From a virus, in the IMG/VR virus record IMGVR_UViG_3300003322_000846, positions 1 to 27,078 of that record: a stretch of DNA of 27,078 bases; one strand, written 5' to 3'. The notes beneath the pieces were generated by a model. The model worked only from the letters and a program-made list of their open reading frames with translations, had not been told where the DNA came from and made no database searches. The translations under genes and the position numbers were made by a program. Shown one piece after another: positions 6,140 to 20,000 of this stretch. Position 1 is the stretch's first letter. Each line of letters opens with the position of its first letter.

Positions 6140-9100
6140 GTGGCGCTCGCCCACTACCGGGCCAAGTTCTGGTTCCCCACCGCAGAAATCGCCCCCAACA
6201 TCACCGCCCGCGTCTTCCTGCACGACACGAACGTCTTCGCCCCCCTCTACACCGACGCCACCGGGACAGTCCCCCAGCCCAACCCCACCCGCACCGACGC
6301 GCAGGGCTTCGTGGACTTCTGGGCCGAGGAAGGCCAGTACTGGCTGCACATCGACTCCGAGGCGTTCGAGATCAGCGTGGGCGGCTCCGGACAGAACGCC
6401 ACCGAACAGTGGGTCCTGGCGCAGATCAGCGCGCACGACGCCGACACCACCGACGTCCACGGCATCGCCGACACCGGCCAGCTCGCCACGGACACCGACG
6501 TCGCCGCCGTCACCACCGCCCTCCAGCAGCACACCCAGCGCACCACGAACGTCCACGGGATCGCGGACACCAGCGTCCTGGAGACGCAGACCGGCGCGCA
6601 GGCGAAAGCCAACGCCGCCCAGCAGAACGCGCTGGCCGCGCTGACCGCCCACGACGCCGACACCACCGACGTCCACGGCATCGCGGACACCAGCCAGCTC
6701 CTGACTCAGGCGGACATCGACGGCCTCGCCACGCACGCCGAGGTCCAGGCGGTGGCCGACAGCCTCACCGCGCACGAGGTCGACACCACCAACGTCCACG
6801 GGATCACCGACACCACCCAGCTCGCCACTCGCGCCGATCTCGACGGCCTCGCGACCCGCACCGACGTCCAGGCGGTGGCCGACGACCTCGCCGCGCACGA
6901 GGCCGCGACCACGGACGTCCACGGGATCGCCGACACGAGCGTCCTGGAGACACAGGCCGGCGCACAGGCGAAGGCGAACGCCGCACGGGACGCGGCGATC
7001 GCCGACGCGGACGGGAGGTACCTCCCCCTCACCGGCGGGACCGTCACCGGGACGATCCGCTCCGAGGACGACTCACCCTCCACCGCCGCGTTCTCCGGCC
7101 GCCTGCCTGCGGACGCCGCCGACCGGTGGACCACCAGCGTCGACGGCACCATGCAATGGGGACCCGGAGGCACCACCGCGCCGGACACGACCCTCTCGCG
7201 CAGCGCGGCCGGGGAACTCAGTCTCGACGGCGGGCTGACCCTGGAGGGCCACAATCTGACCCTCGTGCGGGAGGACGGGACCGGCGCCTACCGGCTGCGC
7301 GTCACAGGAGGAGGACTGGACTTCGAGATCGGCGGCCTGGACCTCTTTTTCTCCCGCTTCGCCAACCCCGACTTCACCGGCGCACAGAACGTCCTCATCC
7401 GCCTGGAGTCGGCCGGCACCCACCTCGTCGGCCACACCATCCTGGGCTCCACCCCGTATGACGTGATCTTCGAGTTCGACACGGCCGAGGCGCTGGCGAC
7501 GATCCACGGAGATCTGACGGTCACCGGGGTGACCACCATCAGCGGCTACGCCACCGACGCCGCCGTCCAGGCGGTGGCCGACGACCTCGCCGCGCACGAG
7601 GCCGCGACGACCAACGTCCACGGGATCGCCGACACCAGCCAGCTCCTGACTCAGGCGGACATCGACGGCCTCGCCACGCACGCCGAGGTCCAGGCGGTGG
7701 CCGACAGCCTCACCGCGCATGAGGCCGACACCACCAACGTCCACGGGATCGCCGACACCAGCGTCCTGGAGACACAGACCGGCGCCCAGACGAAAGCCAA
7801 CGCCGCACGGGACGCCGCCATCGCCCAGGCGGCGACGGACGCCGCCGGCCTCTACCTCAACCGCACCACGGGCGGCACGGTCCAGGGAACCATCACCGAA
7901 TCGGCTGCCTCCGCGACCGCGAGCGCCTACCGCACCCAGGTGAGCGGGGATGCCGTCCCGCGCTGGGAGGTGCGTATCGACGGCAGCGCCCGCTGGAGCA
8001 ACGGCACCGACGCGGCGGACGTCGTGGTCGCGCGCACCGCCGCCGGAGTACTCACCCTCACCGGCTCCCTGGACGCCGTCCTGACCGCCGCCTCCACCAT
8101 CGGACTGGGCACGCGGGTGAGCGGGGACACCCAGGACCGGTTCAGCGTGCTCGCGGACGGCACCCTCGTCTGGGGATCCGGCACAGGAATGCCCGATCTC
8201 CAGCTCCGCCGTCTGTCCGCCGGGGTCCTCCAGGTCGACCAGGGTTTCCGGGTGCAGGGCACGACCACCCTGGCGGGCCTGCTCCAGTTCCTGCGCGCCG
8301 CTTCCACGGATGTCGCCATCGCCTCTCAGGTGAGCGGTGAGGGCTTCGACCGGTTCCGGCTCACGGCTGCCGGTCTGATGGAGTGGGGACCGGGGACCGC
8401 CGCGCGGGACGTGAACCTGTCCCGGGAGGCGGCAGGCACTCTCGCGCTGCACGCCGGGGGGCTGCGTGTGTACCGCGCGACGGCCGGCGAGGTGGCGTTC
8501 AGCGCGCGGGTGGAGGGCGACACCCAGTCCCGCTGGTACGTGCTGGCCGACGGCTCGATGACGTGGGGACCCGGCGGCAGCACCGTCCAGGACATCGGGC
8601 TGGGACGGACAGCGGCGGGCATCCTGACCCTGACCGGAGCCGCTCTGGCGCAGGTGCGTGCGGCCACGACGGACGCCGTGCGGGACGTGCGCGTGAGCGG
8701 GGACACGCAGCCGCGTTTCTACCAGGTCGCCACGGGTCAGATGTACTGGGGGCCGGGGAACGCGTCGCTGGACACGCTCCTGTACCGGGATCAGCCCGGC
8801 AGCCTGGTCACCGACGGCAACTTCACGGTGAACGGGCAGCTTTTCGTCAACGGCACCACCGAGACGACCGGTACCAGCGCAGCCACCGGCTTCACCGTCG
8901 CCAGCCAGCGCATGCGGCGCAAGGCCGGGACCACCTACGTCAATGTCTCCCTCAACGTCACCACCGCCCTCACCACCCCCGGCGGCACCAGCGGGAACGT
9001 CAACCCCGACGTCACCATGTGCACGGTTCCCGCGAACTGGCGGCCGGGGGAGGATCTCTACACGAGCGTCACCACCGGGGTGGGACACGGCACCATCCGC

Positions 9101-9196
9101 ATCGCGACGACCGGCGTGGTACAGCTGATCACCTGGATTCCGAGCCAGTCGGTAGCGGCCGGCGCTGTCATGTTCTTCACCTACACCTTCCAGTGA
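6140..9196 (+). CDS. Repeat-built phage fibre
   Basis: This 1018-residue protein is a long, probably trimeric, virion fibre. Residues 1-95 form an N-terminal attachment domain (AHYRAKFWFPTAEIAPNITARVF). Seven copies of a motif H-x3-TT-[DN]-VHGI-[AT]-DT follow, five in residues 98-275 and two around 480-560, linked by Ala-rich helical stretches. About six repeats then read [RQ]V-SG-[DE]-x-RW/RF...DG-x3-WG-x-G...L-x-R-x-AAG-x-L, roughly between 310 and 890. The end (about 905-1018) is a compact beta domain rich in Thr and is the likely tip. The GTG has GGAGG (6130-6134) five bases before it; another GTG two bases earlier is out of frame. Its location between tail tube and connector genes is unusual for a tail-tip fibre, so it may be a capsid or side fibre. 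Confidence 0.8.
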   Translation: MALAHYRAKFWFPTAEIAPNITARVFLHDTNVFAPLYTDATGTVPQPNPTRTDAQGFVDFWAEEGQYWLHIDSEAFEISVGGSGQNATEQWVLAQISAHDADTTDVHGIADTGQLATDTDVAAVTTALQQHTQRTTNVHGIADTSVLETQTGAQAKANAAQQNALAALTAHDADTTDVHGIADTSQLLTQADIDGLATHAEVQAVADSLTAHEVDTTNVHGITDTTQLATRADLDGLATRTDVQAVADDLAAHEAATTDVHGIADTSVLETQAGAQAKANAARDAAIADADGRYLPLTGGTVTGTIRSEDDSPSTAAFSGRLPADAADRWTTSVDGTMQWGPGGTTAPDTTLSRSAAGELSLDGGLTLEGHNLTLVREDGTGAYRLRVTGGGLDFEIGGLDLFFSRFANPDFTGAQNVLIRLESAGTHLVGHTILGSTPYDVIFEFDTAEALATIHGDLTVTGVTTISGYATDAAVQAVADDLAAHEAATTNVHGIADTSQLLTQADIDGLATHAEVQAVADSLTAHEADTTNVHGIADTSVLETQTGAQTKANAARDAAIAQAATDAAGLYLNRTTGGTVQGTITESAASATASAYRTQVSGDAVPRWEVRIDGSARWSNGTDAADVVVARTAAGVLTLTGSLDAVLTAASTIGLGTRVSGDTQDRFSVLADGTLVWGSGTGMPDLQLRRLSAGVLQVDQGFRVQGTTTLAGLLQFLRAASTDVAIASQVSGEGFDRFRLTAAGLMEWGPGTAARDVNLSREAAGTLALHAGGLRVYRATAGEVAFSARVEGDTQSRWYVLADGSMTWGPGGSTVQDIGLGRTAAGILTLTGAALAQVRAATTDAVRDVRVSGDTQPRFYQVATGQMYWGPGNASLDTLLYRDQPGSLVTDGNFTVNGQLFVNGTTETTGTSAATGFTVASQRMRRKAGTTYVNVSLNVTTALTTPGGTSGNVNPDVTMCTVPANWRPGEDLYTSVTTGVGHGTIRIATTGVVQLITWIPSQSVAAGAVMFFTYTFQ
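6686..6774 (+). repeat. 89-bp direct repeat, copy 1 (in fibre gene)
   Basis: These 89 bases are identical to 7631-7719. They encode the DTSQLLTQADIDGLATHAEV to SLTAH part of the VHGI repeat unit. The copies are 945 bp apart, a multiple of three, so recombination between them would remove or duplicate 315 codons in frame. Confidence 0.9.
7631..7719 (+). repeat. 89-bp direct repeat, copy 2 (in fibre gene)
   Basis: Second copy of the exact 89-base repeat at 6686-6774, same strand. Sequence just before it is also near-identical to fibre sequence at about 6872-6920, which shows that the second repeat block arose by duplication of the first. Confidence 0.9.
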
Positions 9197-9207
9197 CCGC
9201 CTCCCGT

Positions 9208-9222
9208 CCCCACCCCGTGGGG
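9208..9222 (+). terminator. Small hairpin after the fibre gene
   Basis: CCCCAC (9208-9213) pairs with GTGGGG (9217-9222) around a CCC loop, 11 bases after the fibre stop. The stem is only 6 bp, so this is a weak candidate. A -10-like TAGGCT (9229-9234) follows, without a clear -35 element. Confidence 0.3.
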
Positions 9223-9271
9223 GCTGGCTAGGCTGGCATCTCGACCGCCCCTCTGTCCGGGAGGACCGCCC

Positions 9272-10144
9272 ATGCCCGTCATCAATCCCACCCCGGGCGC
9301 CCCCATCACGCCTGATGACGGCGGCCCGTGCGCCTGGCCGCTGGACACCACGTGCTGCCCCGGCTGGCCCGCAGACCCCGCCGACTGGAGCCCGCAGCAC
9401 ACCCTGGCCGTGGAGATCGCCACGGACACCCTGTGGCGCCTGACAGCGGGGCAGTACGGACTGTGCCCCGAACTCATCCGCCCCTGCCGACGCGCCTGCG
9501 CCCCGGACCGCTACGGCACCGGTTTCCTGTGGGACCGGGGCACCTTCCCCCTCGACCCCTACGTCTACAACGGGAAGTGGTTCAACTTCGGCTGCGGGTG
9601 CGGCCCCGAGGACTGCTCCTGCTCCCCCCTGTGCGTCCTGGAACTGCCGGGGGATGCGAACAGCGTCGTAGAGGTGAAGATTGACGGCGAGGTGCTCGAT
9701 CCCGCCCAGTACCGGCTGGACCGCCGGCCGGGCAAGGCGCGGCTGATGCGGCAGGGCGGTCCCTCCGGTCCGTGCTGGCCGACCTGCCAGAACCTCGCCG
9801 TGGACGACAACCAGCCCGGTACGTTCTCGGTCCTGTACCTGCGGGGGAAAGCGGTCCCGGCCGCAGGGCAGCGGGCGCTGGGCGCGCTCGCCTGCGAGAT
9901 CTACAAACAGTGCACGGGCGCGGCTGGGTGCCGGCTGCCCGAACGCGTGCAGACCGTCACCCGCGAAGGGATCACGTACGACATGTTCGACCCGGCCGAA
10001 TGGCTCGACCAGGGACTGACAGGACTGCGGGAGGTGGACACGTGGCTGCGCGCCGTCAATCCCCACCGCCTCTACCAGGCCCCCGGCGTGTTCTCCCTCG
10101 ACATCTCCCCCGCCCCTTCCAGCGCCCGGGGATACACCCTGTGA
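9272..10144 (+). CDS. Head-to-tail adaptor
   Basis: This 290-residue protein looks like the actinophage head-tail adaptor that sits under the portal and joins it to the tail. The signature is the opening CAWPLDTTCCPGW, then a helical stretch (HTLAVEIATDTLWRLTAGQYGLCP), the RPCRRAC motif, and a C-terminal helix with GLREVDTWLRAVNP. It has 16 cysteines, including the cluster GCGCGPEDCSCSPLC, so metal binding or disulfide bonding is likely. GGGAGG (9259-9264) lies seven bases before the ATG. Its stop overlaps the next start (GTGA), which couples the two proteins. Adaptors normally follow the capsid gene directly; here about 7 kb of tail tube and decoration genes intervene. Confidence 0.75.
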   Translation: MPVINPTPGAPITPDDGGPCAWPLDTTCCPGWPADPADWSPQHTLAVEIATDTLWRLTAGQYGLCPELIRPCRRACAPDRYGTGFLWDRGTFPLDPYVYNGKWFNFGCGCGPEDCSCSPLCVLELPGDANSVVEVKIDGEVLDPAQYRLDRRPGKARLMRQGGPSGPCWPTCQNLAVDDNQPGTFSVLYLRGKAVPAAGQRALGALACEIYKQCTGAAGCRLPERVQTVTREGITYDMFDPAEWLDQGLTGLREVDTWLRAVNPHRLYQAPGVFSLDISPAPSSARGYTL

Positions 10145-10668
10145 CCACTCCCCCGATCCTCCTGCCCGCCGACGCCGATCCCGTCCTTGGCCCGATGCTG
10201 GACCAGTTCGTGACCTGCGTGTGCGCGGAACTCCAGGCCGCCGAACGGCCGGCGTGCGCGTGCTGTCTCGTGTGGGGCAACACCATCCCTCCCGCCACTT
10301 TCTGCGACTGCGACTGCAACGGGGGCAGCGGGCAGGCGTGGGTGAGGGTGGTGCGGTGGGATCCTTCCGCCACCGTGAACCAGGCCGTGCGCCGCAAGTG
10401 CCAGCCGTGGCGCTACCGGGTGTGGCTGGAGGCCGGGGTCTACCGGTGCGTCGCCGCTGTCTCCGACCCCCACAGCGGCCAGCCGCCCACCTGTGAGCAG
10501 CGCGCGGCCGACGCGTGGGCGCTCCTCACGGATGCCCGCCTGCTGCGCCAGGCCGCCTCCTGCTGTGCGGCGTTCCAGGGCAAACAGGTGGACTTCGTCT
10601 CGCAGGATCCCACGCAGGTGGCGGGCGCCTGCTCGGGGGTGGCGCTCCAGTTCACGGTGGATCTGTGA
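10141..10668 (+). CDS. Tail terminator or head-tail stopper, Cys-rich
   Basis: A 175-residue protein translated from GTG 10141, overlapping the adaptor stop by four bases. It resembles the actinophage protein that follows the adaptor and closes the head-tail joint. Features are CVCAELQAAERPACACCLVWG, the FCDCDCNGGSGQAWVRVV segment, a W-rich beta region and the final helix-strand DARLLRQAASCC ... GVALQFTVDL. Fourteen of 175 residues are cysteine. Whether it is the stopper (neck) or the tail terminator cannot be settled by eye; both sit at this point in gene order. A strong terminator follows directly, ending the connector pair. Confidence 0.65.
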   Translation: MTTPPILLPADADPVLGPMLDQFVTCVCAELQAAERPACACCLVWGNTIPPATFCDCDCNGGSGQAWVRVVRWDPSATVNQAVRRKCQPWRYRVWLEAGVYRCVAAVSDPHSGQPPTCEQRAADAWALLTDARLLRQAASCCAAFQGKQVDFVSQDPTQVAGACSGVALQFTVDL

Positions 10669-10671
10669 GCC

Positions 10672-10708
10672 GGGTGCGGGGCGGCGTTTCCCCGGCCGCC
10701 CCGCACCC
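10672..10708 (+). terminator. 14-bp terminator after the connector genes
   Basis: GGGTGCGGGGCGGC (10672-10685) pairs perfectly with GCCGCCCCGCACCC (10695-10708) around a 9-base loop that contains TTT. It starts three bases after the stop codon. The left arm recurs at 15718-15733, at the far end of the accessory block. Confidence 0.75.
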
Positions 10709-10728
10709 CTGGCGGGCATCCTGAAGGG

Positions 10729-10914
10729 ATGGACCACGACCTGGAGCAGCACGTCCTGCTGATCACCGTCACCGCGCAGCGCGGCGACCGCAGCGCGGTG
10801 CGCCTCATGAGCGTGATGCGGTCGATGCTCTCCCATCCCCAGTACCACCGCCTCCACCCGGTGTTCACCGCCGAGACGTTCCCCGCCGCGCGTCCTCTGC
10901 ACGGAGAGGGCTGA
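10729..10914 (+). CDS. Small hypothetical protein (61 aa)
   Basis: A 61-residue protein with no recognised family. It has a hydrophobic strand near the start (HVLLITVTAQRG) and an amphipathic helix (SAVRLMSVMRSMLSH). The start is uncertain because the Shine-Dalgarno-like AAGGG (10724-10728) touches the ATG with no spacing. An in-frame CTG lies at 10741, but that is 12 bases from the AAGGG. It is the first gene of the accessory block and is followed by a promoter. Confidence 0.5.
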   Translation: MDHDLEQHVLLITVTAQRGDRSAVRLMSVMRSMLSHPQYHRLHPVFTAETFPAARPLHGEG

Positions 10915-10938
10915 CACCCCCCGGGGGTCTGTTATGGT
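10911..10938 (+). promoter_or_regulatory. Promoter P1 of the accessory block
   Basis: CTGACA (10911-10916) and TATGGT (10933-10938) with a 16-base spacer fit an actinobacterial sigma-70-type promoter. The -35 overlaps the end of the previous gene. The spacer holds the palindrome ACCCCCCGGGGGT (10916-10928). Initiation would fall near 10945, inside the shared element described next, 30 bases before the ATG at 10975. Confidence 0.6.
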
Positions 10939-10954
10939 TCGGGTACACGGTACG
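10930..10954 (+). repeat. 25-base shared promoter-region element, copy 1
   Basis: These 25 bases match 12378-12402 with a single C/T difference at 10940. They include the -10 TATGGT and the downstream GTACACGGTAC (10943-10953), a pair of GTAC half-sites three bases apart. Conservation beyond the -10 suggests a protein-binding site over the start point. Confidence 0.75.
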
Positions 10955-10974
10955 AACCGAGACCCGGAGACGTC

Positions 10975-11421
10975 ATGACCGATCCCATCGACCTCGTCAA
11001 GATCATCCCGTTCGCGTGGCCCTACGAGTACCTCGCCCCGCTGGAGAAGGCCGCGGCCACCCAGCCCCGGCGTCATCCCTCGTTCGCGGACGAACCCGCC
11101 TACCCGGGACGCCGGCTCGCCTCCACGGCCGTCAGGGATCTCCTGGAGTACGCCGGGCAGATCATGCTGGACGCCGCGCTGGCCCAGGACACCACCCCCG
11201 CCCAGTCCGGGCACCTCATCGGCGCGCACGCCATCTACACGCACGCAGCCGGGATGGTGCGGGACATGATCCTGGACGAGGAGGGCGGCTACGTGGACGC
11301 CAAGGAGTACCCGGACCTGTGGGGAGTCATCGCCTCCGGTGACACCGTCGCCGCCCTCGGCTGGTGGGGACACCTCAACGTGTGCCACACCCTCACCGTG
11401 GCGGGCATCTCCCTCCAGTGA
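10975..11421 (+). CDS. Hypothetical protein (148 aa) of the accessory block
   Basis: A 148-residue, mostly helical protein that I do not recognise. It begins MTDPIDLVKIIPFAWPYEY. It contains a helix-rich middle with several histidines (GHLIGAHAIYTHAAGMVRDM), an acidic turn (DEEGGYVDAKEYPDLW) and a Trp-rich end (AALGWWGHLNVCH). GGAGA (10966-10970) precedes the ATG by four bases. It has its own promoter (P1), which suggests independent timing. The histidine pattern hints at metal binding, but no known motif is complete. Confidence 0.65.
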   Translation: MTDPIDLVKIIPFAWPYEYLAPLEKAAATQPRRHPSFADEPAYPGRRLASTAVRDLLEYAGQIMLDAALAQDTTPAQSGHLIGAHAIYTHAAGMVRDMILDEEGGYVDAKEYPDLWGVIASGDTVAALGWWGHLNVCHTLTVAGISLQ

Positions 11422-11484
11422 CCACCCCCGAGACATGGCAGGCGTTCAGCACTGCCCGGCACGAGAGATCCAGGAGGAACCCCG

Positions 11485-11715
11485 GTGAAGCACTGTAAGC
11501 GCGTGGTGGGCATGGAGCAGGTGGGGGACGAGATCACGGTCCACTACCGCACCGACCTGCGTCCCGTGCTCTCCTACGTGGTGCTCGCGGTGGTCGCCGC
11601 CGTGCTCCTGGCGGTTGCCGCCGCCTGTGACGGCGACCGCAACGGCCTGCACCAGGGCCCCGACGACGAGTTCCCCCAGTACCGGCGCGTCCAGCAGCAG
11701 GACCCCGCCGGTTAG
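11485..11715 (+). CDS. Small single-pass membrane protein (76 aa)
   Basis: A 76-residue protein with one clear transmembrane helix (LSYVVLAVVAAVLLAVAAAC, about residues 29-48). The N-terminal 28 residues are mixed-charge and the tail is acidic and hydrophilic (GDRNGLHQGPDDEF). A perfect AGGAGG (11472-11477) lies seven bases before the GTG. The cysteine ending the helix is not at the N-terminus, so this is not a lipoprotein. No family is recognised. A role in superinfection exclusion, membrane anchoring or lysis timing would be guesswork. Confidence 0.65.
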   Translation: MKHCKRVVGMEQVGDEITVHYRTDLRPVLSYVVLAVVAAVLLAVAAACDGDRNGLHQGPDDEFPQYRRVQQQDPAG

Positions 11716-11846
11716 TCCTTGCAGACGGGAAGGGGCGGACAGCCAGGTAAGAAGGAGTGGCAAGGCGCCGGGCTGATCGGGCGTCCCCGGTCGGAATGCC
11801 GCTCCTCCCCCTCCCTTTGATTCACCTTGGCCGGAAAGGAATTGAC

Positions 11847-12125
11847 ATGGCGTCAGGAAAACGGAAGCGCAAGTCCGTCATACCCAAGGACGTGCGGCGC
11901 GCGCGGGTCAACCAACGCGCACGGGAGGTCATCAAAGAAGTCGTCCAGCCGGAAGAAGGGCTGCGGATGCTGAACGGCGGCCAGTTGGCGCCGGAATCGG
12001 AGGAACGCGTCCGGGCGGCGCTGTTCCGGCGCTTCGGGCCCTCTCTGGCGTTGCGGAAAGGCCTGAATCAGCCGGGAGTGACGATCAGCGTCCCCGATGA
12101 CCTGCCTTCGCCGGGGGCCGTCTAG
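11847..12125 (+). CDS. Small basic protein (92 aa)
   Basis: A 92-residue protein starting MASGKRKRKSVIPKDVRRAR. The N-terminal third is strongly basic and resembles a nucleic-acid-binding tail. The middle is helical (VNQRAREVIKEVV; SEERVRAALFRRFG). The end is a proline-bounded strand (GVTISVPDD). GGAAAGGA lies just before ATG 11847. An upstream in-frame GTG at 11757 is possible, but it would add a region with no coding character. The very strong terminator at 12134-12189 begins nine bases after its stop. No family is recognised. Confidence 0.65.
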   Translation: MASGKRKRKSVIPKDVRRARVNQRAREVIKEVVQPEEGLRMLNGGQLAPESEERVRAALFRRFGPSLALRKGLNQPGVTISVPDDLPSPGAV

Positions 12126-12133
12126 GACCGGCC

Positions 12134-12189
12134 GGCACGTCAGAGGGGCCGCTCCCCCGGAGTGCGGGGAGCGGCCCCTCTGACGTGCC
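12134..12189 (+). terminator. 24-bp perfect-stem terminator
   Basis: The 24 bases 12134-12157 pair without mismatch with 12166-12189 around an 8-base loop. This is the strongest hairpin in the window. The sequence after it (GCGTCCCTC) is C/T-rich but not a U-tract. It separates the first four accessory genes from the next promoter. Confidence 0.85.
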
Positions 12190-12356
12190 GCGTCCCTCAC
12201 AGTGCACGGCATGCCGAATGACGCGGGCAGTCCGGTGGCAGACCACCACCCGGTCGGTAGCGGCCGGTGTGCTCGCGGTGGGTGATGAGGTGCGCGTGAC
12301 GGCCACCGTCATCAACCCGGTGTTCGCCGTCACATAACCTCTGGCGTTCCCGCACG
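12190..12356 (+). other. Non-coding gap with a doubtful 39-codon reading frame
   Basis: Between the terminator and promoter P2 no convincing gene is present. One reading frame, ATG 12218 to TAA 12335-12337, would encode 39 residues. Its stretch LAVGDEVRVTATVINPVF looks protein-like, but no ribosome site precedes it. It could be a remnant of a gene or chance. Otherwise I see nothing in this stretch. Confidence 0.3.
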
Positions 12357-12386
12357 TTGCCTCGCGCGGTGCGGGAGTGTTATGGT
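12357..12386 (+). promoter_or_regulatory. Promoter P2 of the accessory block
   Basis: TTGCCT (12357-12362) and TATGGT (12381-12386), spaced 18 bases, precede the 489-residue gene. The -10 and the bases after it are nearly identical to those of P1. Initiation near 12393 would leave a leader of about 30 bases before ATG 12423. Confidence 0.6.
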
Positions 12387-12402
12387 TTGGGTACACGGTA
12401 CG
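12378..12402 (+). repeat. 25-base shared promoter-region element, copy 2
   Basis: Second copy of the element at 10930-10954, with one mismatch (T at 12388). It again spans the -10 and the GTACACGGTAC core (12391-12401) at the same distance from the -10. Sequence on both sides has diverged, which points to selection on this site. Confidence 0.75.
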
Positions 12403-12422
12403 GAGAGAGGGAAGGACCCACC

Positions 12423-13892
12423 ATGGAAACGCAGGTCGTGGCCACCAACAGTCAGGCGAAGATCGTGCACCTGCGCGGCAGCATCACCACCGTCTGCGGC
12501 GCCACCACGTTCCGCAAGGCCAACGCCGTCCAACTGGAGACCGCCAAGCGCTGCGCCCGCTGTTTCCCCGAAGCCGCCGCTGCGGCACCCAAGACGACGA
12601 GCCGCAAGCCCGCCGCCCCGAAGGCCGCTTCCCTCCCGCAGCAGCCGGCCCCGGTCGCTGAGGCCGCCCCGGCGGAGGACCGCTGGGTGTACCGCCTCTC
12701 CTACGCGCAGCTGGAGGCGAGCCGCGAGAAGTTCACCAAGATCAACGACCGCGCGGCCAAGAAGGGCCTTACCGGTTCCTGGGGCTTCACCAGCGTGGAG
12801 CGCCGGGTGGAGACGCAGACACACCCCGCGACCGGCTTCCCCGTGGAGCGCGTCTACTACGAGTGCACCATCGGCGGCAGCGCCCCCGCCTTCGAGGGGT
12901 GGCAGTTCATCGGCACCCTCGACTGGGACGAGTACGCGGGCCTCATCGTGCGTGCGCTCCCCGGTGCGCCCGCCATCCAGCGGGACAACCTCCGTCAGGG
13001 GTGGTGCGACCACTGCAAGACAACGCGTATCCGCCGGACGACGTACGTGGTGCGCGACACCAGCAACGGCGCGCAGCTCCAGGTGGGCGGCTCGTGCATC
13101 AAGGACTTCACCGGCTGGGCGGGCAACGTGGCGTGGCTGGAGAAGCAGCTCCCCTCCCAGTCCGGAGAGGAGTGGTTCGGGCAAGCCGGCCACGTCGACT
13201 ACACGCCCTCGGCCGTCCTGGCGACCGCGTGGGCGGTCATCAAGCAGCATGGATTCGTCCCCGCTTCCCACCACGACAAGACCACCACCCGCACGCTGGT
13301 GGACATGGCGCTCTACCCCAACACCAAGAACGCCAAGGAGGAGGCGTTCGCCCGCTCCCTGAGGCCCCTTGCGAAGGAAGCCGCCGGCCGCGCGGAGGAG
13401 ATCAAGGCGTTCGTCCTCTCCGACGCGTTCGGAGGTGACAGCGACTACGTCCTCAACCTCAAGGCGGCGGCGGCCGGCGAGCGGGTGTCACCGCGCAACT
13501 TCGGCCTCCTGGTGTCCGCTCCGCAGGCGTACGCGCGTCACCTGGAGCGCACCCTGATCCGGGAGAAGCAGGCGGCGGATGACGCCGGATCGCAGTGGAT
13601 CGGTACGGCTCCGGACAAGGCGCAGGGGGTCAAGGGTTCGCGCCTGGAGGTGGAGGTGACCATGCGCAGCCTCCGCTACATCCAGGGGGACTACGGGGTC
13701 TCCACGCTCTACGTGATGACCGACGGGAGCGGGAACGTCCTCAAGTGGTTCGCGTCGGACGACAAGCTCGGCGAGCGGGAGGGCGCCCGGTTCCTCATCC
13801 GGGGCACCGTCAAGGCACACGAGGAGTACCACGGCGTCCGGCAGACCGTACTGACCCGGTGCACCGTGCTGAAGACCCTCCCCACCGAGTAA
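12423..13892 (+). CDS. Zinc-ribbon and OB-like nucleic-acid-binding candidate (489 aa)
   Basis: A 489-residue protein with three parts. Residues 1-49 have the pattern of a small zinc ribbon (H16, C25, C44, C47). A flexible Ala/Pro/Lys linker follows (50-85). The core starts at DRWVYRLSYAQLEASREKF and includes a second Cys site (C195-x2-C198, then C225 in VGGSCIKDFTG). Residues about 405-485 alternate strands in the manner of an OB fold (SRLEVEVTMRSL; LYVMTDGSGNVLKWFA; RFLIRGTVKAHEEYHGVRQT). I recognise similar proteins in actinophages and their hosts but know of no proven function. Binding of single-stranded DNA or RNA fits best. The ATG has GAAGGA (12411-12416) six bases before it. It has its own promoter (P2) and a strong terminator after it, so it is a self-contained unit. 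Confidence 0.7.
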   Translation: METQVVATNSQAKIVHLRGSITTVCGATTFRKANAVQLETAKRCARCFPEAAAAAPKTTSRKPAAPKAASLPQQPAPVAEAAPAEDRWVYRLSYAQLEASREKFTKINDRAAKKGLTGSWGFTSVERRVETQTHPATGFPVERVYYECTIGGSAPAFEGWQFIGTLDWDEYAGLIVRALPGAPAIQRDNLRQGWCDHCKTTRIRRTTYVVRDTSNGAQLQVGGSCIKDFTGWAGNVAWLEKQLPSQSGEEWFGQAGHVDYTPSAVLATAWAVIKQHGFVPASHHDKTTTRTLVDMALYPNTKNAKEEAFARSLRPLAKEAAGRAEEIKAFVLSDAFGGDSDYVLNLKAAAAGERVSPRNFGLLVSAPQAYARHLERTLIREKQAADDAGSQWIGTAPDKAQGVKGSRLEVEVTMRSLRYIQGDYGVSTLYVMTDGSGNVLKWFASDDKLGEREGARFLIRGTVKAHEEYHGVRQTVLTRCTVLKTLPTE

Positions 13893-13900
13893 CCACCCAC

Positions 13901-13932
13901 GAGGCCACCCACCCACCCGGGTGGGTGGCCTC
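13901..13932 (+). terminator. 14-bp terminator related to the capsid-leader palindrome
   Basis: GAGGCCACCCACCC (13901-13914) pairs perfectly with GGGTGGGTGGCCTC (13919-13932) around the loop ACCC. CTCTTCC follows, a weak pyrimidine tract. It ends eight bases before the next ribosome site. It shares CCACCCGGGTGGGTGG (13913-13928) with 59-74. Confidence 0.75.
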
Positions 13933-13953
13933 TCTCTTCCTGGAGTGCCCCTC

Positions 13954-14607
13954 ATGCTGTACGGCATCTACGTCCCCACCGCCCGCACGCCCGTCGCCGG
14001 CCTCGACCTGGAGCGCTTCCCCTCCCGCGAGCAGGCCGAACGTGAGCTGCGGCGCCGCACCCTGACGGGCGCCAGTACGACCTGGTACGTGCGCGACCGG
14101 TCCGAGCGCTCCCACCGGCGCACCCGGAGAACGCAGGTGTGGGACGCGGCCGATGACACCAACTACATGCGCGTCTTCCTGCGCTACGCCTCCGACCCCG
14201 TCCCCTCCCTCCTCGACGTCCCCGATGAGGAATGGATCGTCGAGCCGGGGCGCAACCGGCCCCAGGTCATCCGTCTGCCGTGGGAGGAGGTCCCCGGGGA
14301 GACGATCACCCTGCGCACGAACGGTGTCCGCATCCGGCCTTCCGCCGCGTCCCCTCAGAACCCGCCTGAGCGCCCCGCGCGCGCTGCGCGCACCACAACC
14401 CCTGCGCCCGTCCCGCAGGCGCTCCCAGCGGCGCGGGGGGTGTGTGCAGCGTGCTACCAGGAACGCACTGCCGCCGGTACGTGCGGCTGCGCGGGAAACG
14501 CCGGTGACGTCCCTGTCACCCTGCACCGTCCCTCCCGTACCGGATGGGAGCAGTGCGACGCATGCGGACGGGCGGCCACCGCCTACGCCCGCTGCGGCTG
14601 CTCCTGA
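13954..14607 (+). CDS. Hypothetical protein with twin CxxC-x9-CxC motifs (217 aa)
   Basis: A 217-residue protein. Residues 1-130 form an unrecognised alpha/beta domain (MLYGIYVPTARTPVAGLDLE; helix FPSREQAERELRRRTL; then acidic strands up to TLRTNGVRIRP). A Pro/Ala linker spans about 131-160. The end has two small metal-site motifs with the same spacing: C164-x2-C167-x9-C177-x-C179 and C201-x2-C204-x9-C214-x-C216. Each looks like a zinc knuckle. TGGAG (13941-13945) lies eight bases before the ATG. The long linker and paired knuckles suggest nucleic-acid or protein binding. No function is known to me. Confidence 0.65.
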   Translation: MLYGIYVPTARTPVAGLDLERFPSREQAERELRRRTLTGASTTWYVRDRSERSHRRTRRTQVWDAADDTNYMRVFLRYASDPVPSLLDVPDEEWIVEPGRNRPQVIRLPWEEVPGETITLRTNGVRIRPSAASPQNPPERPARAARTTTPAPVPQALPAARGVCAACYQERTAAGTCGCAGNAGDVPVTLHRPSRTGWEQCDACGRAATAYARCGCS

Positions 14608-14641
14608 AAACGCTGTCACCGACACGAAAGGCATCACTCCC

Positions 14642-15031
14642 ATGACCACCGACTGGACGACCCTCCTCGCCACCCCGCGCACGGTCACCGTCCTGGACCA
14701 GAACGGCGAGCCGCGCGAGATCACCGTCACCCCGCGCGTACGGGACCGCGTGCGCGCGGGCCGGCGGCGTGTCACCGTGCACGTGCTGCCCCTCCTGCTG
14801 GACGAGGTCGCCGCCGTCGACCTCCGGTACCGGGCGTTCGCGGCCGACATGCTCCGGGCGGCGACGGTCGAACTGAGCGAGGACGCCATGCGGCACGTCG
14901 CCTCCCACCGCCGCGCAGGGCGCGTGCGCACGTCCTACAACGGGGAGGGGATCGTCCCCGTGACCGCCGTCCTCGAACTGGGTGAGCGGCTCTGGGACCA
15001 CTTCTTCGCCGCTGGCGGGGATGAGCGATAA
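14642..15031 (+). CDS. Hypothetical protein (129 aa)
   Basis: A 129-residue protein without a recognised family. It begins with beta-like sequence (PRTVTVLDQNGEPREITVTP), then a basic strand (RVRAGRRRVTVHVLPLLL) and helices (YRAFAADMLRAATVELSEDAMRHVASH; AVLELGERLWDHFFAAG). GAAAGG (14626-14631) precedes the ATG by ten bases. It follows the twin-knuckle gene by 34 bases with no terminator between, so the two are probably co-transcribed. Confidence 0.6.
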   Translation: MTTDWTTLLATPRTVTVLDQNGEPREITVTPRVRDRVRAGRRRVTVHVLPLLLDEVAAVDLRYRAFAADMLRAATVELSEDAMRHVASHRRAGRVRTSYNGEGIVPVTAVLELGERLWDHFFAAGGDER

Positions 15032-15100
15032 GAGGGGTTGTCGGTGCGGCGGGGGCGCGGCGCGTACGCGTCCTGGCCGGGGCGGGCGATGATCGTGCCC

Positions 15101-15250
15101 ATGAGTACCAACGCGACGATGGCCCTGATCGTCTGTGTCCTGGCGCTGATGGCGGCCGTGGTGCTGGTCGCGGGGATCTGGGCCACGGTGAAGATCGTGA
15201 AGACGCGCGCGGAGCACCAGGGAGTGCCAGCGGGTAAGCACCCCTCATGA
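15101..15250 (+). CDS. Very small membrane protein (49 aa)
   Basis: A 49-residue protein that is mostly one transmembrane helix (MALIVCVLALMAAVVLVAGI, about residues 7-26), followed by a basic amphipathic tail (WATVKIVKTRAEHQG). In-frame alternative starts are ATG 15089 and GTG 15095; none has a strong ribosome site. Its TGA overlaps the ATG of the gp10-like gene (ATGA), so its translation probably drives that of the next gene. No family is recognised. Confidence 0.55.
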   Translation: MSTNATMALIVCVLALMAAVVLVAGIWATVKIVKTRAEHQGVPAGKHPS

Positions 15251-15705
15251 GCCGGGTGGAGATCGAGATCGATGAGGCTGCGGTGGACCGCCTCCTGCGC
15301 TCCCCGGAAGGGGACGTGGGTCAGGCGGTCCGCCGCGTTGTGGTGGCGGCGCGCAACGTGGCGGTGGCGAAGGCGCCGGTGGACAACGGGCCACTGCGGG
15401 GGTCGCTGCGCACGGAGTTCGAGTACGGGTCGCGCTATGTGCGCGGGTGGGTGTACTCGAACCTGGAGTACGCGCTGTATGTGCACGAGGGCACAGGGAT
15501 CTACGGGCCGAAGGGGCGGCCGATCAAGCCGAAGCGCGGGCAGTATCTGGTGTTCGAGGCGCGCAACGCCCGCCGGACGCCGGGGGGGCGGGGAAATCTG
15601 GTGTTCGCGCGGCAGGTGCGCGGGCAGCGTCCGCAGCGGTTCCTGCTGGAGGCGCTGCGGGAGGTGTCGCCGTGGCCGGTGGACGATGCGGTGATCTACA
15701 CCTGA
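15247..15705 (+). CDS. HK97 gp10-like tail completion protein
   Basis: A 152-residue protein with the features of the HK97 gp10-like family, which acts in head-tail joining and tail completion. Seen in the sequence: helix VGQAVRRVVVAARNVAVAKAP, then PVDNGPLRGSLRTEF, a VYSNLEYALYVHEGTGIYGPKG strand-turn, and the ending VRGQRPQRFLLEAL. In this family the VD-x-G-x-L-R-x-S and Y-A-x-x-V-H-E-G-T motifs are typical. Its length fits the family. It is coupled to the upstream 49-residue gene by an ATGA overlap and has no good ribosome site of its own. It marks the return to the structural operon after the accessory block. Confidence 0.85.
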   Translation: MSRVEIEIDEAAVDRLLRSPEGDVGQAVRRVVVAARNVAVAKAPVDNGPLRGSLRTEFEYGSRYVRGWVYSNLEYALYVHEGTGIYGPKGRPIKPKRGQYLVFEARNARRTPGGRGNLVFARQVRGQRPQRFLLEALREVSPWPVDDAVIYT

Positions 15706-15726
15706 GGTGCTGGGCCGGGGTGCGGG

Positions 15727-15747
15727 GCGGCGTACCGGGTGCGCCGC
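15727..15747 (+). terminator. Weak hairpin before the chaperone genes
   Basis: GCGGCG (15727-15732) pairs with CGCCGC (15742-15747) around a 9-base loop. The sequence to its left (15718-15733, GGGTGCGGGGCGGCGT) copies the left arm of the terminator at 10672, but the right arm has decayed. It looks like a degenerate copy of that terminator. Confidence 0.35.
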
Positions 15748-15816
15748 ATGCGAACCCTCAGTGATCGGGTGGTTACTCTGGGCACACTTGCTGTCGCCCC
15801 TCGCAGGAGCTGCCCC

Positions 15817-16305
15817 ATGGCCACTGACTTCGTTCTGGACGCCGACACCGGTTACGACCCCGATGAACTCCCCCCGATCGCCGTGAAAATCGACGGCCGC
15901 GAGTACACCGCCTACCCCCCCAAGGACTCCCTCCCGATCCTCCTGTCGCGGCTCAGCGACGTGGAGACGCTGGAGCGCGATCCAGCGGCCCAGCAGGATC
16001 TGATCCGGCAGATCCTGCTGTCCGTGTTCGACTCCGCTACCACCCTGCTGCTGCTGGACCGGCTCATGGACATGAGCGACCGGAAGTTCACCCTGCGCTA
16101 CGTGCTGCACGTCGTGAACCTGGTGGGCGACTACTACCGGCCCCTCATGCAGGAGCACTACGAGGCGATGGGGGTGGACAACCCTCTGGGCACTCCCGCC
16201 AACCGTGAGGAGCGCCGCGCCCTGGAGCGCGGGCCGGCGAAGAAGACCGTGAAGAAGGCCGCGCCCAGGGCCGCCGCGCCCAGGGCCGCCGCGCGCGCGC
16301 GGTGA
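15817..16305 (+). CDS. Tail assembly chaperone, first protein
   Basis: A 162-residue protein placed two genes before the tape measure, as the first tail assembly chaperone normally is. It starts with an acidic stretch (VLDADTGYDPDELPP) and a short beta hairpin (IAVKIDGREYTAYPP). Helices follow (ILLSRLSDVETLERD, LIRQILLSVFDSATTLLLLDRLMD, LRYVLHVVNLVGDYYRPLM). The tail is low-complexity and basic (KKTVKKAAPRAAAPRAAARAR), produced partly by a 15-base tandem repeat. AGGAG (15805-15809) lies seven bases before the ATG; an earlier in-frame start at 15739 has no ribosome site. Assignment rests on position, helical content and the overlap with the next gene. Confidence 0.75.
   Translation: MATDFVLDADTGYDPDELPPIAVKIDGREYTAYPPKDSLPILLSRLSDVETLERDPAAQQDLIRQILLSVFDSATTLLLLDRLMDMSDRKFTLRYVLHVVNLVGDYYRPLMQEHYEAMGVDNPLGTPANREERRALERGPAKKTVKKAAPRAAAPRAAARAR
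16261..16290 (+). repeat. Two tandem 15-base repeats at the end of chaperone 1
   Basis: GCGCCCAGGGCCGCC occurs twice in tandem (16261-16275 and 16276-16290) and is followed by a GC dinucleotide run up to the stop. It encodes the repeated APRAA. It lies in the zone where phages often shift frame between the two chaperones. Confidence 0.9.
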
Positions 16306-16883
16306 ACCCTCCCGCGCGGGCGGCGTTCGGCCCCGTGGACGGGGGGTACCTCCCCTTCACGGTCGACGGCCGTCCCTACGCCCTGGACGTCCCGCACGAC
16401 GGGCGCCTCCTGGCGGGGTGGGCGGCGGACGGACGCTGGATCGAGCTGGTTCCCGGCTGTCTGCACCCCGACTACGCGCGGGAGTTCACCGACCGCCTCG
16501 TCCACCCCACCGATCCCCTCGGCCTGCGCGCGTGCCACCAGATCGCGCTGGGCCTGGCGGAGGAGGTGTACGGGGTGCCGTGGTGGGCGGCGGCGCGGCT
16601 GTGCGTGACGGCGCGGGAAGGGTGGCGCTACTTCGGGGCGTGGTGTGTCCAGCACGGGGTCAACCTGTCCGGTGAGCCCGCGCACCGGGTGGTGTCGGCC
16701 GCTCTGGCGTGGATCGCGTCCCGGGTGGAGGACGAGAAGGAGGCGCGGAAGGTGGAGAACGACATCTTCCTCCCGCCCAAGCCCACGGGGAAGCGGCGTA
16801 TGAAAGCCGCTCCCGGGTTCTCCCCGCAGGAGCAGGCGGCGGCGTTCGAGGCGGCGATGGCGGCGCTGGGTCCGGGAGGGTGA
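16302..16883 (+). CDS. Tail assembly chaperone, second protein
   Basis: A 193-residue protein in the -1 frame relative to the first chaperone, overlapping it by GTGA (16302-16305). It has a beta start (GGYLPFTVDGRPYALDVPHDGR) and a helical middle rich in Trp (GLAEEVYGVPWWAAARLCVTAREGWRYFGAWCVQHG). The end is charged and helical (EDEKEARKVENDIFLP; SPQEQAAAFEAAMAAL). The -1 frame is open from 16209, so a fusion by frameshift is possible, but no standard slippery heptamer is present. GTG initiation by coupling is equally likely. Position directly before the tape measure supports the role. Confidence 0.7.
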   Translation: MNPPARAAFGPVDGGYLPFTVDGRPYALDVPHDGRLLAGWAADGRWIELVPGCLHPDYAREFTDRLVHPTDPLGLRACHQIALGLAEEVYGVPWWAAARLCVTAREGWRYFGAWCVQHGVNLSGEPAHRVVSAALAWIASRVEDEKEARKVENDIFLPPKPTGKRRMKAAPGFSPQEQAAAFEAAMAALGPGG

Positions 16884-17090
16884 CGGCCCGGCGAGCAGAC
16901 CAGCCCATGCCGGGCCGCCGCGCCCTCTGTCGGATGACGGCGCCCGGCCACCTTAGAAGGCGGCTGTCCTCCCCGCCAACCCACATCACGCCCTGTAGCC
17001 TGGCGATTACGAGAAGTGAAAGCCGCTGGTTAGTGGACCGGGCTCGATGAACCACCTGTCTCGGGTGGTTCACCATGCCCGGGAGGACGA
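16884..17090 (+). other. Leader of the tape measure gene with a hairpin
   Basis: This 207-base gap holds no convincing gene. A hairpin lies at 17048-17072: TGAACCACC pairs with GGTGGTTCA over nine perfect base pairs around TGTCTCG. A -10-like TAGCCT (16996-17001) occurs without a clear -35. The hairpin ends 10 bases before the ribosome site GGAGG (17082-17086) of the tape measure gene, so it may set its translation or mark an RNA 5' end. Confidence 0.45.
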
Positions 17091-20000
17091 GTGGCAGGTG
17101 AGGTCGGCCGCGCGTCCGTCGTGGTCTCCGCCGACGTCGGCACTTTCTCCACCCAGCTCCGCCAGGAACTGCGCACCGCCGGCCGCAACGCGGGCCAGGC
17201 GTTCGACGACGCCCTCCAGAGTTCCCTGCGCAACGCCGGCCGCGACGCGGGACGTACCGTCACCCGGGACCTGCGCGCCGCCCTGCGCGGTGTCTCCGCC
17301 ACCGTGCGCGTCGACCCCGACACCACCCGCTTCCAGCGGGACGTCACCCGGGACCTGCGCGCCCTGACCGCCGTGGCGCTGCGCGTCACCCCCGACACCG
17401 ACACCTTCCGCACCGACCTGGCCCGCCAGCTCCGCAGCCTGGCTGCGGTCACCGTTCCCGTCGAGCCCGACACCACCCGCTTCCGGGCCGTCATGGACCG
17501 CCAGCTCCGGGGCCTGTCCGCCACCGTCCGCATCACCCCCGACCTCACCCGGTTCCAGGCGGACCTGCGCGCCGGCCTGCGGACGTTCGCCGCCCCCGTC
17601 CGCGTCACCCCCGACATCCCGCGCTTCCTCTCCGAGCTGGAAGCGGGGGTGCGCACCCTCAGCCCCGAGGTGCGCATCGTCCCCGACATGGTGCGTTTCG
17701 CCGCCCTCATCCAGGCGGGCCTGCGCACCTTCACCGCCACCGTCCGCATCACCCCCGACATCGCCCGCTTCCGCACCGCCCTGCGCCAGGGACTGCGCGG
17801 GGTGGAAGCCACTGTGCGCGTCACCCCCGACCTGGCGCGCTTCCGCTCCTCCCTGGTCGCCCAGATCCGCAGTCTGGGCGCCGTCCAGGTGCGTGTGGAG
17901 CCGGACATCCGCCGCTTCCAGGCCGCTATGCGCCGCCAGCTCCGGGGCATCGACCCCATCCGCGTCCCCGTGGTCCCCGACACCGCCGGATTCCTGCGCG
18001 CCCTGCGCCGCCTGGACCCCCCGCCGATCCGTGTCCGCGTGCAGACGGACACCGACGCCGACGCCCTCGGACGCGGCCTCAACCGCCTCGTCGACGGCCT
18101 CAACAACAGCAACGGCGCAGCGGGCGGCGCGGCCGGCGGCTTCGCGCGGCTGGGCGGAGCGATGGGACCGCTCATCGCCACAGCGGGCTCCCTCGTGGGA
18201 GCCCTCGCTCCCGTGGTCGGCATCCTCGCCGCCGCCCCGGCCGCGCTGGTCGGCTCCATCGCCGCGTTCGGCGCGCTGCGCCTGGCGACCGCCGGCCTGG
18301 GCGAGGCGTTCGGCTCGGCCCTGAACGACAACGCCAAGAAGTTCCAGGAGACCCTCAAGGGCCTCACCCCCGCAGCGCAGGCCGCGGCCAAGGAGATCCG
18401 CTCCCTCAAACCCGCTTTCGACGACCTCCGCGCCGACGCCCAGGCCGCGTTCCTCACTCCGCTCAGCGGACAGTTCACCGCCGCCGCGCGCGCCGCCGCA
18501 CCCCTGCGCACCGCTCTGCTGTCGACCGCCACCGCATGGGGGCAGATCGCCCGCGCCTCCCTGCGGGCGGCGACGTCGCAGGGCTCGGTGGCCAACCTCC
18601 AGTCCGTGTTCGGCGCGGTGAACCAGGGCCTGACAGCCATTGCGCGCGGTATCGGTCCGGTGATCAGCGGCCTGATCGAGATGGCCGGGGTGATCTCCCA
18701 GGCGTTCGGGACGCAGGTCGCGGCCGGCATCCAGAACGCTCTGACCGCCTTCGGGAACTTCCTCACCACCGCCTCCCGCAGCGGCCAGGCCATCGCGTGG
18801 GTGCAGGGCGCCGTCACCGTGTTCCGCCAACTGGGCGTCATCGTCGCGAACATCGGCTCCATCATCGGCTCCTTCCTGGGGGCGATGTCCACGACCGGGG
18901 CGGGCATCCTCATCGTCTTCCAGCAGCTCACCGGGGCGCTGGCGGACTTCTTCCGTACCGCCGCCGCGCAGTCGGCGCTGTCGGCGCTGTTCGGGCTGTT
19001 CGGGGCGCTCGCCAACGCCCTCACGGGAGCGGTGCTGCCCGCTCTGTCGGCGCTCCTGACCGCACTGGCTCCGGTGATCACGACGCTGAGCAACGCGCTC
19101 ACCCCCGTGATCCAGGAGCTGGGGACGCTCCTGGGCGCGGTTTTGACGGCGGCGCTCCAGACCGTGGTGCCGCTCCTCCAGCCGCTGGCCGACATCGTGG
19201 CCAACCTCCTGGCCGCTCTCACCCCGCTGCTGCCCGTCCTCACCGAGGTGGCCGTTCAGCTCGGCAACGAGCTGGGGCGCGCGGTCCAGAGCCTGGTGCC
19301 GCTCCTCACCGCGCTCGGGACGGCCGTGGTGCAGGTGGTGGCCGCGTTCGTCCCCCTCGTGGGGCAGATCCTCCAGGCCCTGCTGCCCGTCCTGCCGCCC
19401 GTGGTCGACGCGTTCTCCGCCCTCGTCCAAGCGCTCGTTCCCCTGCTCGGGCCGGTCGCTGACCTGGTCTCCGCGTTCGCGCCGCTGCTCGCGCTGTTCA
19501 TCCAGATCGCCGCCCCCATCCTCAAGGTGGCCGCCTCGTTCGCGTCCTGGGTGATCATCCAGGCCATCGTGCCGATGATCTCCGCCATCGTCTCCGCCCT
19601 GGTGGCCCTCACGAACGTCCTCACCACCGTGGTGTCGGCCATCGCGAGTTTCGTGCAGCAGGTCATCACCTGGTTCCAGAACCTGTACAACATCCTCGTC
19701 GGCAACAGCATCATCCCCGACCTGATCAACGCGATCATCCAGTGGTTCACGCAGCTCCCCGGCCAGGTGCTCGCGATCGTCACCGGGTTCGTGACCAGCG
19801 TCATCAGCGCCTTCACCAGCCTGGCCACCTCCGTGATCACGACGGTGTCCACTTTCGTGACATCGATCGTCACGTTCTTCGCCTCCCTGCCGGGGCGCAC
19901 GGTGGCGGTCCTGTCCAGCCTCGCCGGCCTGCTGGTCGGGGTGTTCAGCAACGCAGTCACCTCCGCCCTGAACACCGCCCGCAACCTGGGCAACGCGATC

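Follow-up and report, generated by a model that had tools for sequence, protein, structure and literature searches.

The 27,078-base IMG/VR virus record IMGVR_UViG_3300003322_000846 (hereafter, the window) is probably a fragment, and it carries a virion gene module in which genes for the major capsid protein (phrog_777), the major tail protein (phrog_792), the head-tail adaptor (phrog_783), and a phrog_810 neck/connector protein precede an HK97-gp10-like tail-completion gene (phrog_5), two genes in the chaperone position, a tape measure gene (phrog_305), and minor tail protein genes. Between the phrog_810 and gp10-like genes, eight forward open reading frames (ORFs), named b1 to b8, lie within positions 10669-15246, and this block is the subject of the present report. 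To its left lie the adaptor gene (9272-10144; E = 6e-83 to phrog_783) and the phrog_810 gene (10141-10668, forward strand; E = 3.9e-19), the latter with 57-61% identity by tblastn to the sister phages described below; to its right lies the gp10-like gene (15247-15705, forward strand; E = 3e-14 to phrog_5), 67-81% identical to those of the sisters. These flanks place the block between connector and tail-completion genes, as the first-pass annotation of the sequence had proposed.

Seven of the eight block ORFs are solid. The coding signal is clear for b1, b2, b3, b5, b6, b7, and b8 (0.17 to 0.40 per codon) and weak for b4 (11847-12125), a basic 92-residue ORF with a value of -0.06 per codon that we regard as a doubtful gene. 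The 61-residue b1 (10729-10914; in-frame signal, 0.26 per codon) belongs to no family, b2 (10975-11421; 0.38 per codon) is an acidic orphan of 148 residues, and b7 (14642-15031) is an orphan of 129 residues; neither b2 nor b7 has a match in the phage collection. Two small products, b3 (11485-11715; 76 residues, hydropathy peak of 2.81) and b8 (15101-15250; 49 residues, hydropathy peak of 3.06), each have one strong membrane segment, which in b3 ends in AAAC. The start of b8 is uncertain, and its end overlaps the start of gp10 by 4 bp. The remaining two products, b5 (12423-13892; 489 residues, the largest of the block) and b6 (13954-14607; 217 residues), carry cysteine (Cys) motifs of the zinc type. 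No block protein matched Pfam above the cut-off, gave a structural PHROG match below E = 0.05, or matched a PADLOC defense model at E ≤ 1. The earlier description of the block as free of recognized structural proteins, with two tiny membrane proteins and two proteins with zinc-type motifs, therefore holds, its count of eight genes being secure for seven.

The block also contains promoter-like and terminator-like elements. A 37-nt element at 10925 recurs at 12373 with 84% identity, and GTTATGGTTYGGGTACACGGTACG is present at 10931 and 12379; no match within three mismatches is expected by chance, and no shuffle of the window gave one. The first of these candidate promoters, P1 (10911-10954, forward), has the form CTGACA-16-TATGGT, which scores as a sigma-70 promoter with an extended -10 box, together with the shared TTCGGGTACACGGTACG. 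The second, P2 (12357-12402, forward), was read by eye as TTGCCT-18-TATGGT plus the element shared with P1, and GGGTACACGGTACG follows in both copies. The pair thus agrees with the two matching promoters noticed at first reading, and the shared element was not found in the sister genomes or, by exact search, in viral contigs. A terminator-like hairpin follows the phrog_810 gene (10669-10713, forward; a perfect 14-bp stem, with a computed RNA fold of -43.5 kcal/mol for 62 nt). Two hairpins correspond to the internal terminators that had been described: one without an assigned strand, after b4 and between the P1 and P2 units (12133-12190; a perfect 25-bp stem, no T-run), and one 3' of b5 (13901-13932, forward; a 14-bp stem with a T-rich tail). 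A 20-nt terminator-type sequence, CCACCCACCCACCCGGGTGG, occurs both after b5 (13905-13924) and upstream of the capsid gene in reverse orientation (59-78).

The 16-mer GGGTGCGGGGCGGCGT occurs exactly at 10672, within the hairpin that follows phrog_810, and again at 15718-15733 on the forward strand. A Markov model puts the probability of such a match by chance at ~3e-4 when two junction regions of 200 bp are compared. The first-pass annotation had taken these copies to bracket the block, as if it had been inserted beside a duplicated terminator. The copies are indeed exact, but the second is 3' of gp10, so the pair encloses gp10 as well as the block. Nor is this a duplicated terminator, since only the first copy lies in a perfect hairpin; the second has no hairpin partner, and the sisters carry unrelated sequences and hairpins at its position. 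An insertion bracketed by repeats was accordingly rejected.

The window shares the order of capsid, major tail, adaptor, phrog_810, gp10, and tape measure genes with Rosebush/Pipefish-type actinophages (Kronus, ReqiPine5, and Saccharomonospora phage PIS 136), whose connector modules place at most one gene between phrog_810 and gp10, compared to eight ORFs here. A phrog_810-type gene is followed directly by gp10 in PIS 136 and in Curtobacterium phage Sunfish, and a single phrog_901 gene intervenes in Kronus, ReqiPine5, and Ribeye. Among the 28 more distant relatives in which both adaptor and gp10 were found, a few of them near-duplicate loci, the distance from the end of the adaptor to the start of gp10 is 0.5-1.5 kb in 25, with outliers of 1.8 kb (L103), 3.0 kb (Sunfish), and 6.6 kb (L072); it is 5.1 kb in the window. 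From the protein relatives and a G+C content of ~70% we infer an actinobacterial host. Alignments of b5 and the adaptor found no match in genome contigs, and therefore no prophage or host was identified; likewise, positions 9000-17000 and 8900-10700 have no nucleotide relatives among 50,697 phage records.

The phrog_901 genes at this junction raise the question of whether some block products are virion or assembly proteins that have diverged, with b7 the counterpart of the phrog_901 protein of mycobacteriophages. A 26-residue stretch of b7 does resemble the phrog_901 N-terminus, but the hhalign probability is 2.2%, b7 has no phrog match, and the assignment of b7 to phrog_901 was rejected. Moreover, the junction has no phrog_901 gene in PIS 136, Sunfish, or Xkcd426, and the close relative L058 lacks b7 there, its b6 homologue adjoining gp10. 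We consider this origin very improbable.

Closer relatives were recovered from viral contigs by searches with adaptor and gp10 alignments. (Single-protein scans of the viral contigs with b5 and with the minor tail protein found nothing, and alignment searches with b5 and other proteins gave matches.) The adaptor and gp10-like proteins of sister G015 (111 kb) are 69% and 67% identical to those of the window, and those of sister G016 (109 kb) are 66% and 73% identical. At the same junction, these two have ~11 and 12.5 kb of genes, respectively, for which synteny is extensive between the two sisters but does not extend to the window; the best DNA matches between the block and those genomes are short, with weak E values (0.005 or worse), and b6 is the only block gene that they share with the window at the protein level. 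Their blocks include a lipoprotein-like first gene and, near the start, a protein rich in Cys that may have an OB domain. Near the gp10 end there is a tyrosine recombinase with a small gene after it, and G015 also has a GNAT acetyltransferase. Another block gene of both sisters (L046:6738-7580; 77% identical between them), whose product starts MSEPELKLLVVDWDFFFPNP, has no Pfam, PHROG, or PADLOC match. The record of L058, the closest relative (81% identity in gp10), starts within a b6 homologue whose end lies immediately ahead of gp10, so that b7 and b8 are absent at this place. In L062, phrog_810 and gp10 are separated by a single predicted lipoprotein-like gene.

The differing content in G015, G016, L058, L062, and the window marks the junction as a repeatedly used accessory site. 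Alignment with sister phages, the check that the first-pass annotation had itself suggested, thus shows a block that is not conserved in all relatives, its place being taken mostly by other genes in G015 and G016. The notion that it splits a normally continuous operon is borne out by the distant relatives but not by the nearest sisters, which have larger inserts. Judging from these comparisons, the block is one version of the slot content rather than a one-off insertion. We interpret it as a multigene accessory region of the moron type that occupies a variable, clade-level cargo site in these actinophages, with a probability of about 0.62, because most distant relatives lack it and close sisters differ in its content. 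The accessory nature claimed at first reading is thereby supported, although not the mode of insertion that went with it.

The tyrosine recombinase of the sisters suggests a different history, in which an ancestor had its integrase and phage attachment site (attP) at this junction, as the sisters may have, and the block is what remained after the integrase was lost or replaced. The recombinase is the only PF00589 match in each of G015 and G016, where it is found close to the distal end of the block, and the two copies are 81% identical; b6 suggests that the blocks have shared ancestry. On the other hand, neither the window nor the L058 record, each of them a fragment, contains a recombinase, no tRNA gene able to serve as an attachment site was found, and no prophage relative turned up in the genome contigs searched; a remnant integration cassette is therefore improbable in our view. 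No serine resolvase family match was found in the G015 and G016 records, and neither the recombinase nor the Cys/OB protein of the sisters matched isolated phages.

The largest block protein, b5, belongs to the phrog_2319 family (E = 2.3e-64 over profile positions 8-397 of 399), which is widespread in phages and plasmids and has no known function. Relatives were found in 92 phage records (Streptomyces, Gordonia, Rhodococcus, Aeromonas, Vibrio, Erwinia, and other phages) and in 23 plasmid records, where the neighbors include DUF3560 (twice), an SSB, and a MobF relaxase. Residues 92-483 align with family members Zukovirus KimJongPhill gp88 (~50% identical to b5), Aeh1 ORF229c, Stormageddon gp21, and Tunturi_5 ORF318, and relatives in 14 viral contigs are 47-51% identical. 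The conserved CxxC motif and the C-terminal region are common to b5 and the family, and b5 has an additional N-terminal Cys domain; its CxxC motifs are at residues 44 and 195, and C195, C198, and C225 are invariant in an alignment of 13 sequences. In Zukovirus, the phrog_2319 gene is found among early genes, unlike b5 in its structural operon, but in Gordonia phage Stormageddon the relative is likewise among tail genes, where its depositor named it “DNA binding domain protein.” The Tunturi_5 relative carries the depositor's name “RecT-like ssDNA annealing protein”; both labels are names and not tests. The capsid of the window phage has no match in the same 14 viral records with b5 relatives, many of them fragments, which is only suggestive of b5 moving independently of this virion module.

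An AlphaFold2 model of b5 (mean predicted local distance difference test [pLDDT] score of 66) has a five-stranded C-terminal domain at residues 407-486, for which an OB fold is predicted. Its Foldseek neighbors in the PDB include PriB, POT1, RPA, and an archaeal SSB (E = 0.05-0.1), with OB-fold matches overall at E = 0.02-0.1, and Foldseek also places the model near phage proteins of no known function and two named as binding single-stranded DNA. On the strength of the Cys motifs and the predicted OB fold, b5 is most likely a nucleic-acid-binding protein. The sisters' Cys/OB protein gives a weak 83-column match to the C-terminal domain of b5 (24% identity, probability of 12%), for which we do not claim homology.

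The b6 protein, with two sets of four cysteines arranged as C-terminal Cys4 (CxxC...CGC) motifs, is the one block gene common to all three sisters, with homologues that are 44% identical in L058 and match at E = 1.8e-9 in G016 and 2.3e-5 in G015. Streptomyces phage Frankenweenie gp350 is a full-length homologue (47.5% identical) with relatives in Streptomyces phages Kela, Quantum, and Satis; unlike b6, it lies away from virion genes, in a 200-kb phage genome where small hypothetical genes surround it. A structure model of b6 (mean pLDDT of 45) was too poor for use.

The same proteins could serve a more specific purpose, namely counter-defense or superinfection exclusion, with b5 and b6 inhibiting host defenses that target nucleic acids and b3 and b8 blocking the entry of later phages at the membrane. 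A fixed site with variable multigene content, promoter sequences of its own, and small membrane proteins would suit such an island, as would the proximity of b5 relatives to plasmid transfer genes and the lipoprotein-like first gene of the sisters' blocks; in Streptococcus thermophilus phages a phage lipoprotein family serves superinfection exclusion (PMC3952083). Yet the eight proteins have no PADLOC match and no homologue of tested function, b8 is missing from the close sister L058, and b3 has no family, so that we think it unlikely, if conceivable, that this is what the block does. Distinctly unlikely, too, is the broader proposal that the junction is a dedicated cargo bay of the clade, at which islands for establishment or counter-defense are swapped with the help of the sisters' tyrosine recombinase and Cys/OB-type proteins are a recurring core.

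As an accessory region, the block could work as follows. The hairpin at 10669-10713 would end the upstream structural transcript, and a host-type RNA polymerase would read two units from the matched promoters: a P1 unit of b2 and b3, and perhaps b4, and a P2 unit of b5 with partial read-through into b6, b7, and b8 and on to gp10. With promoters of its own, the cargo would be expressible independently of the structural genes, and it would be plausible for such self-driven expression to serve establishment or host takeover. The main product, b5, would most likely be an OB-fold, metal-binding protein that binds single-stranded nucleic acid during establishment or replication, with b6 a zinc-ribbon accessory protein and b3 and b8 envelope proteins. 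These products would act in the cell rather than in the virion, at establishment or takeover, and the cargo may confer a host- or niche-specific advantage and be swapped between phages as whole genes.

Several observations weigh against this interpretation. The G+C content of the block (0.698 versus 0.708) and its mid-range trinucleotide distance do not stand out; a foreign composition was thus rejected, which argues against a recent foreign acquisition, and the atypical composition usual for a moron is lacking. The stretch from b6 to gp10 showed no terminator-like site, which, together with the overlap of b8 and gp10, indicates that part of the block may be cotranscribed with the late genes. 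Finally, the Foldseek PDB matches of b5 are all above E = 0.01 and come from a model with the mean pLDDT given above.

Other places in the same operon vary as well. Both sisters have a reverse-strand helix-turn-helix gene of phrog_4044, terminase-small-subunit-like (L046:14122-14889 and L047:3961-4713), between the chaperone-position gene and the tape measure gene, where the window has none, and this makes a second variable junction in the tail operon. The gap between gp10 and the next tail gene, 112 bp in the window, is a third, occupied in L058 by a membrane-protein ORF on the reverse strand (L058:1279-1581). Between the major tail and adaptor genes, the window has a large gene (6140-9196) that contains internal repeats and whose product matches phrog_24355 (a family named polysaccharide deacetylase) at its N-terminus; it is only 38-39% identical in the sisters, and the product is probably a fast-changing virion decoration or fiber. 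In PIS 136, genes annotated as ExsB and cyanophycin synthetase are found between the major tail and adaptor genes (L007:3009-4444), which may represent metabolic cargo at a different site of this operon. About eight 72- to 75-nt repeats, encoding 24 to 25 residues of the VxPDTxRF type, make up the N-terminal portion of the tape measure gene (17279-17883), and the sister tape measures have similar repeats.

The junction marks a specific site of accessory gene exchange in a clade of actinophages not described before, and comparing more sisters there would be expected to enrich for new host-takeover or counter-defense genes. A further suggestion is that cargo carrying promoters of its own interrupts the virion operon of these phages, and the b5 family is now an obvious candidate for a binding assay. 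Among known systems, the block most resembles morons and regions of genomic plasticity, in which extra genes with a promoter and a terminator lie between genes that are adjacent in relatives and vary between phages (PMC4378225). The block likewise separates genes that are adjacent in PIS 136 and Sunfish, has promoter and terminator-like elements of its own at the sequence level, and varies in content among the close relatives G015, G016, and L058. It differs in that morons are usually single coding regions of atypical composition, whereas here there are seven to eight ORFs in two promoter units with the composition of the phage itself, and in that its slot, unlike that of the usual moron, lies inside the connector-tail operon.

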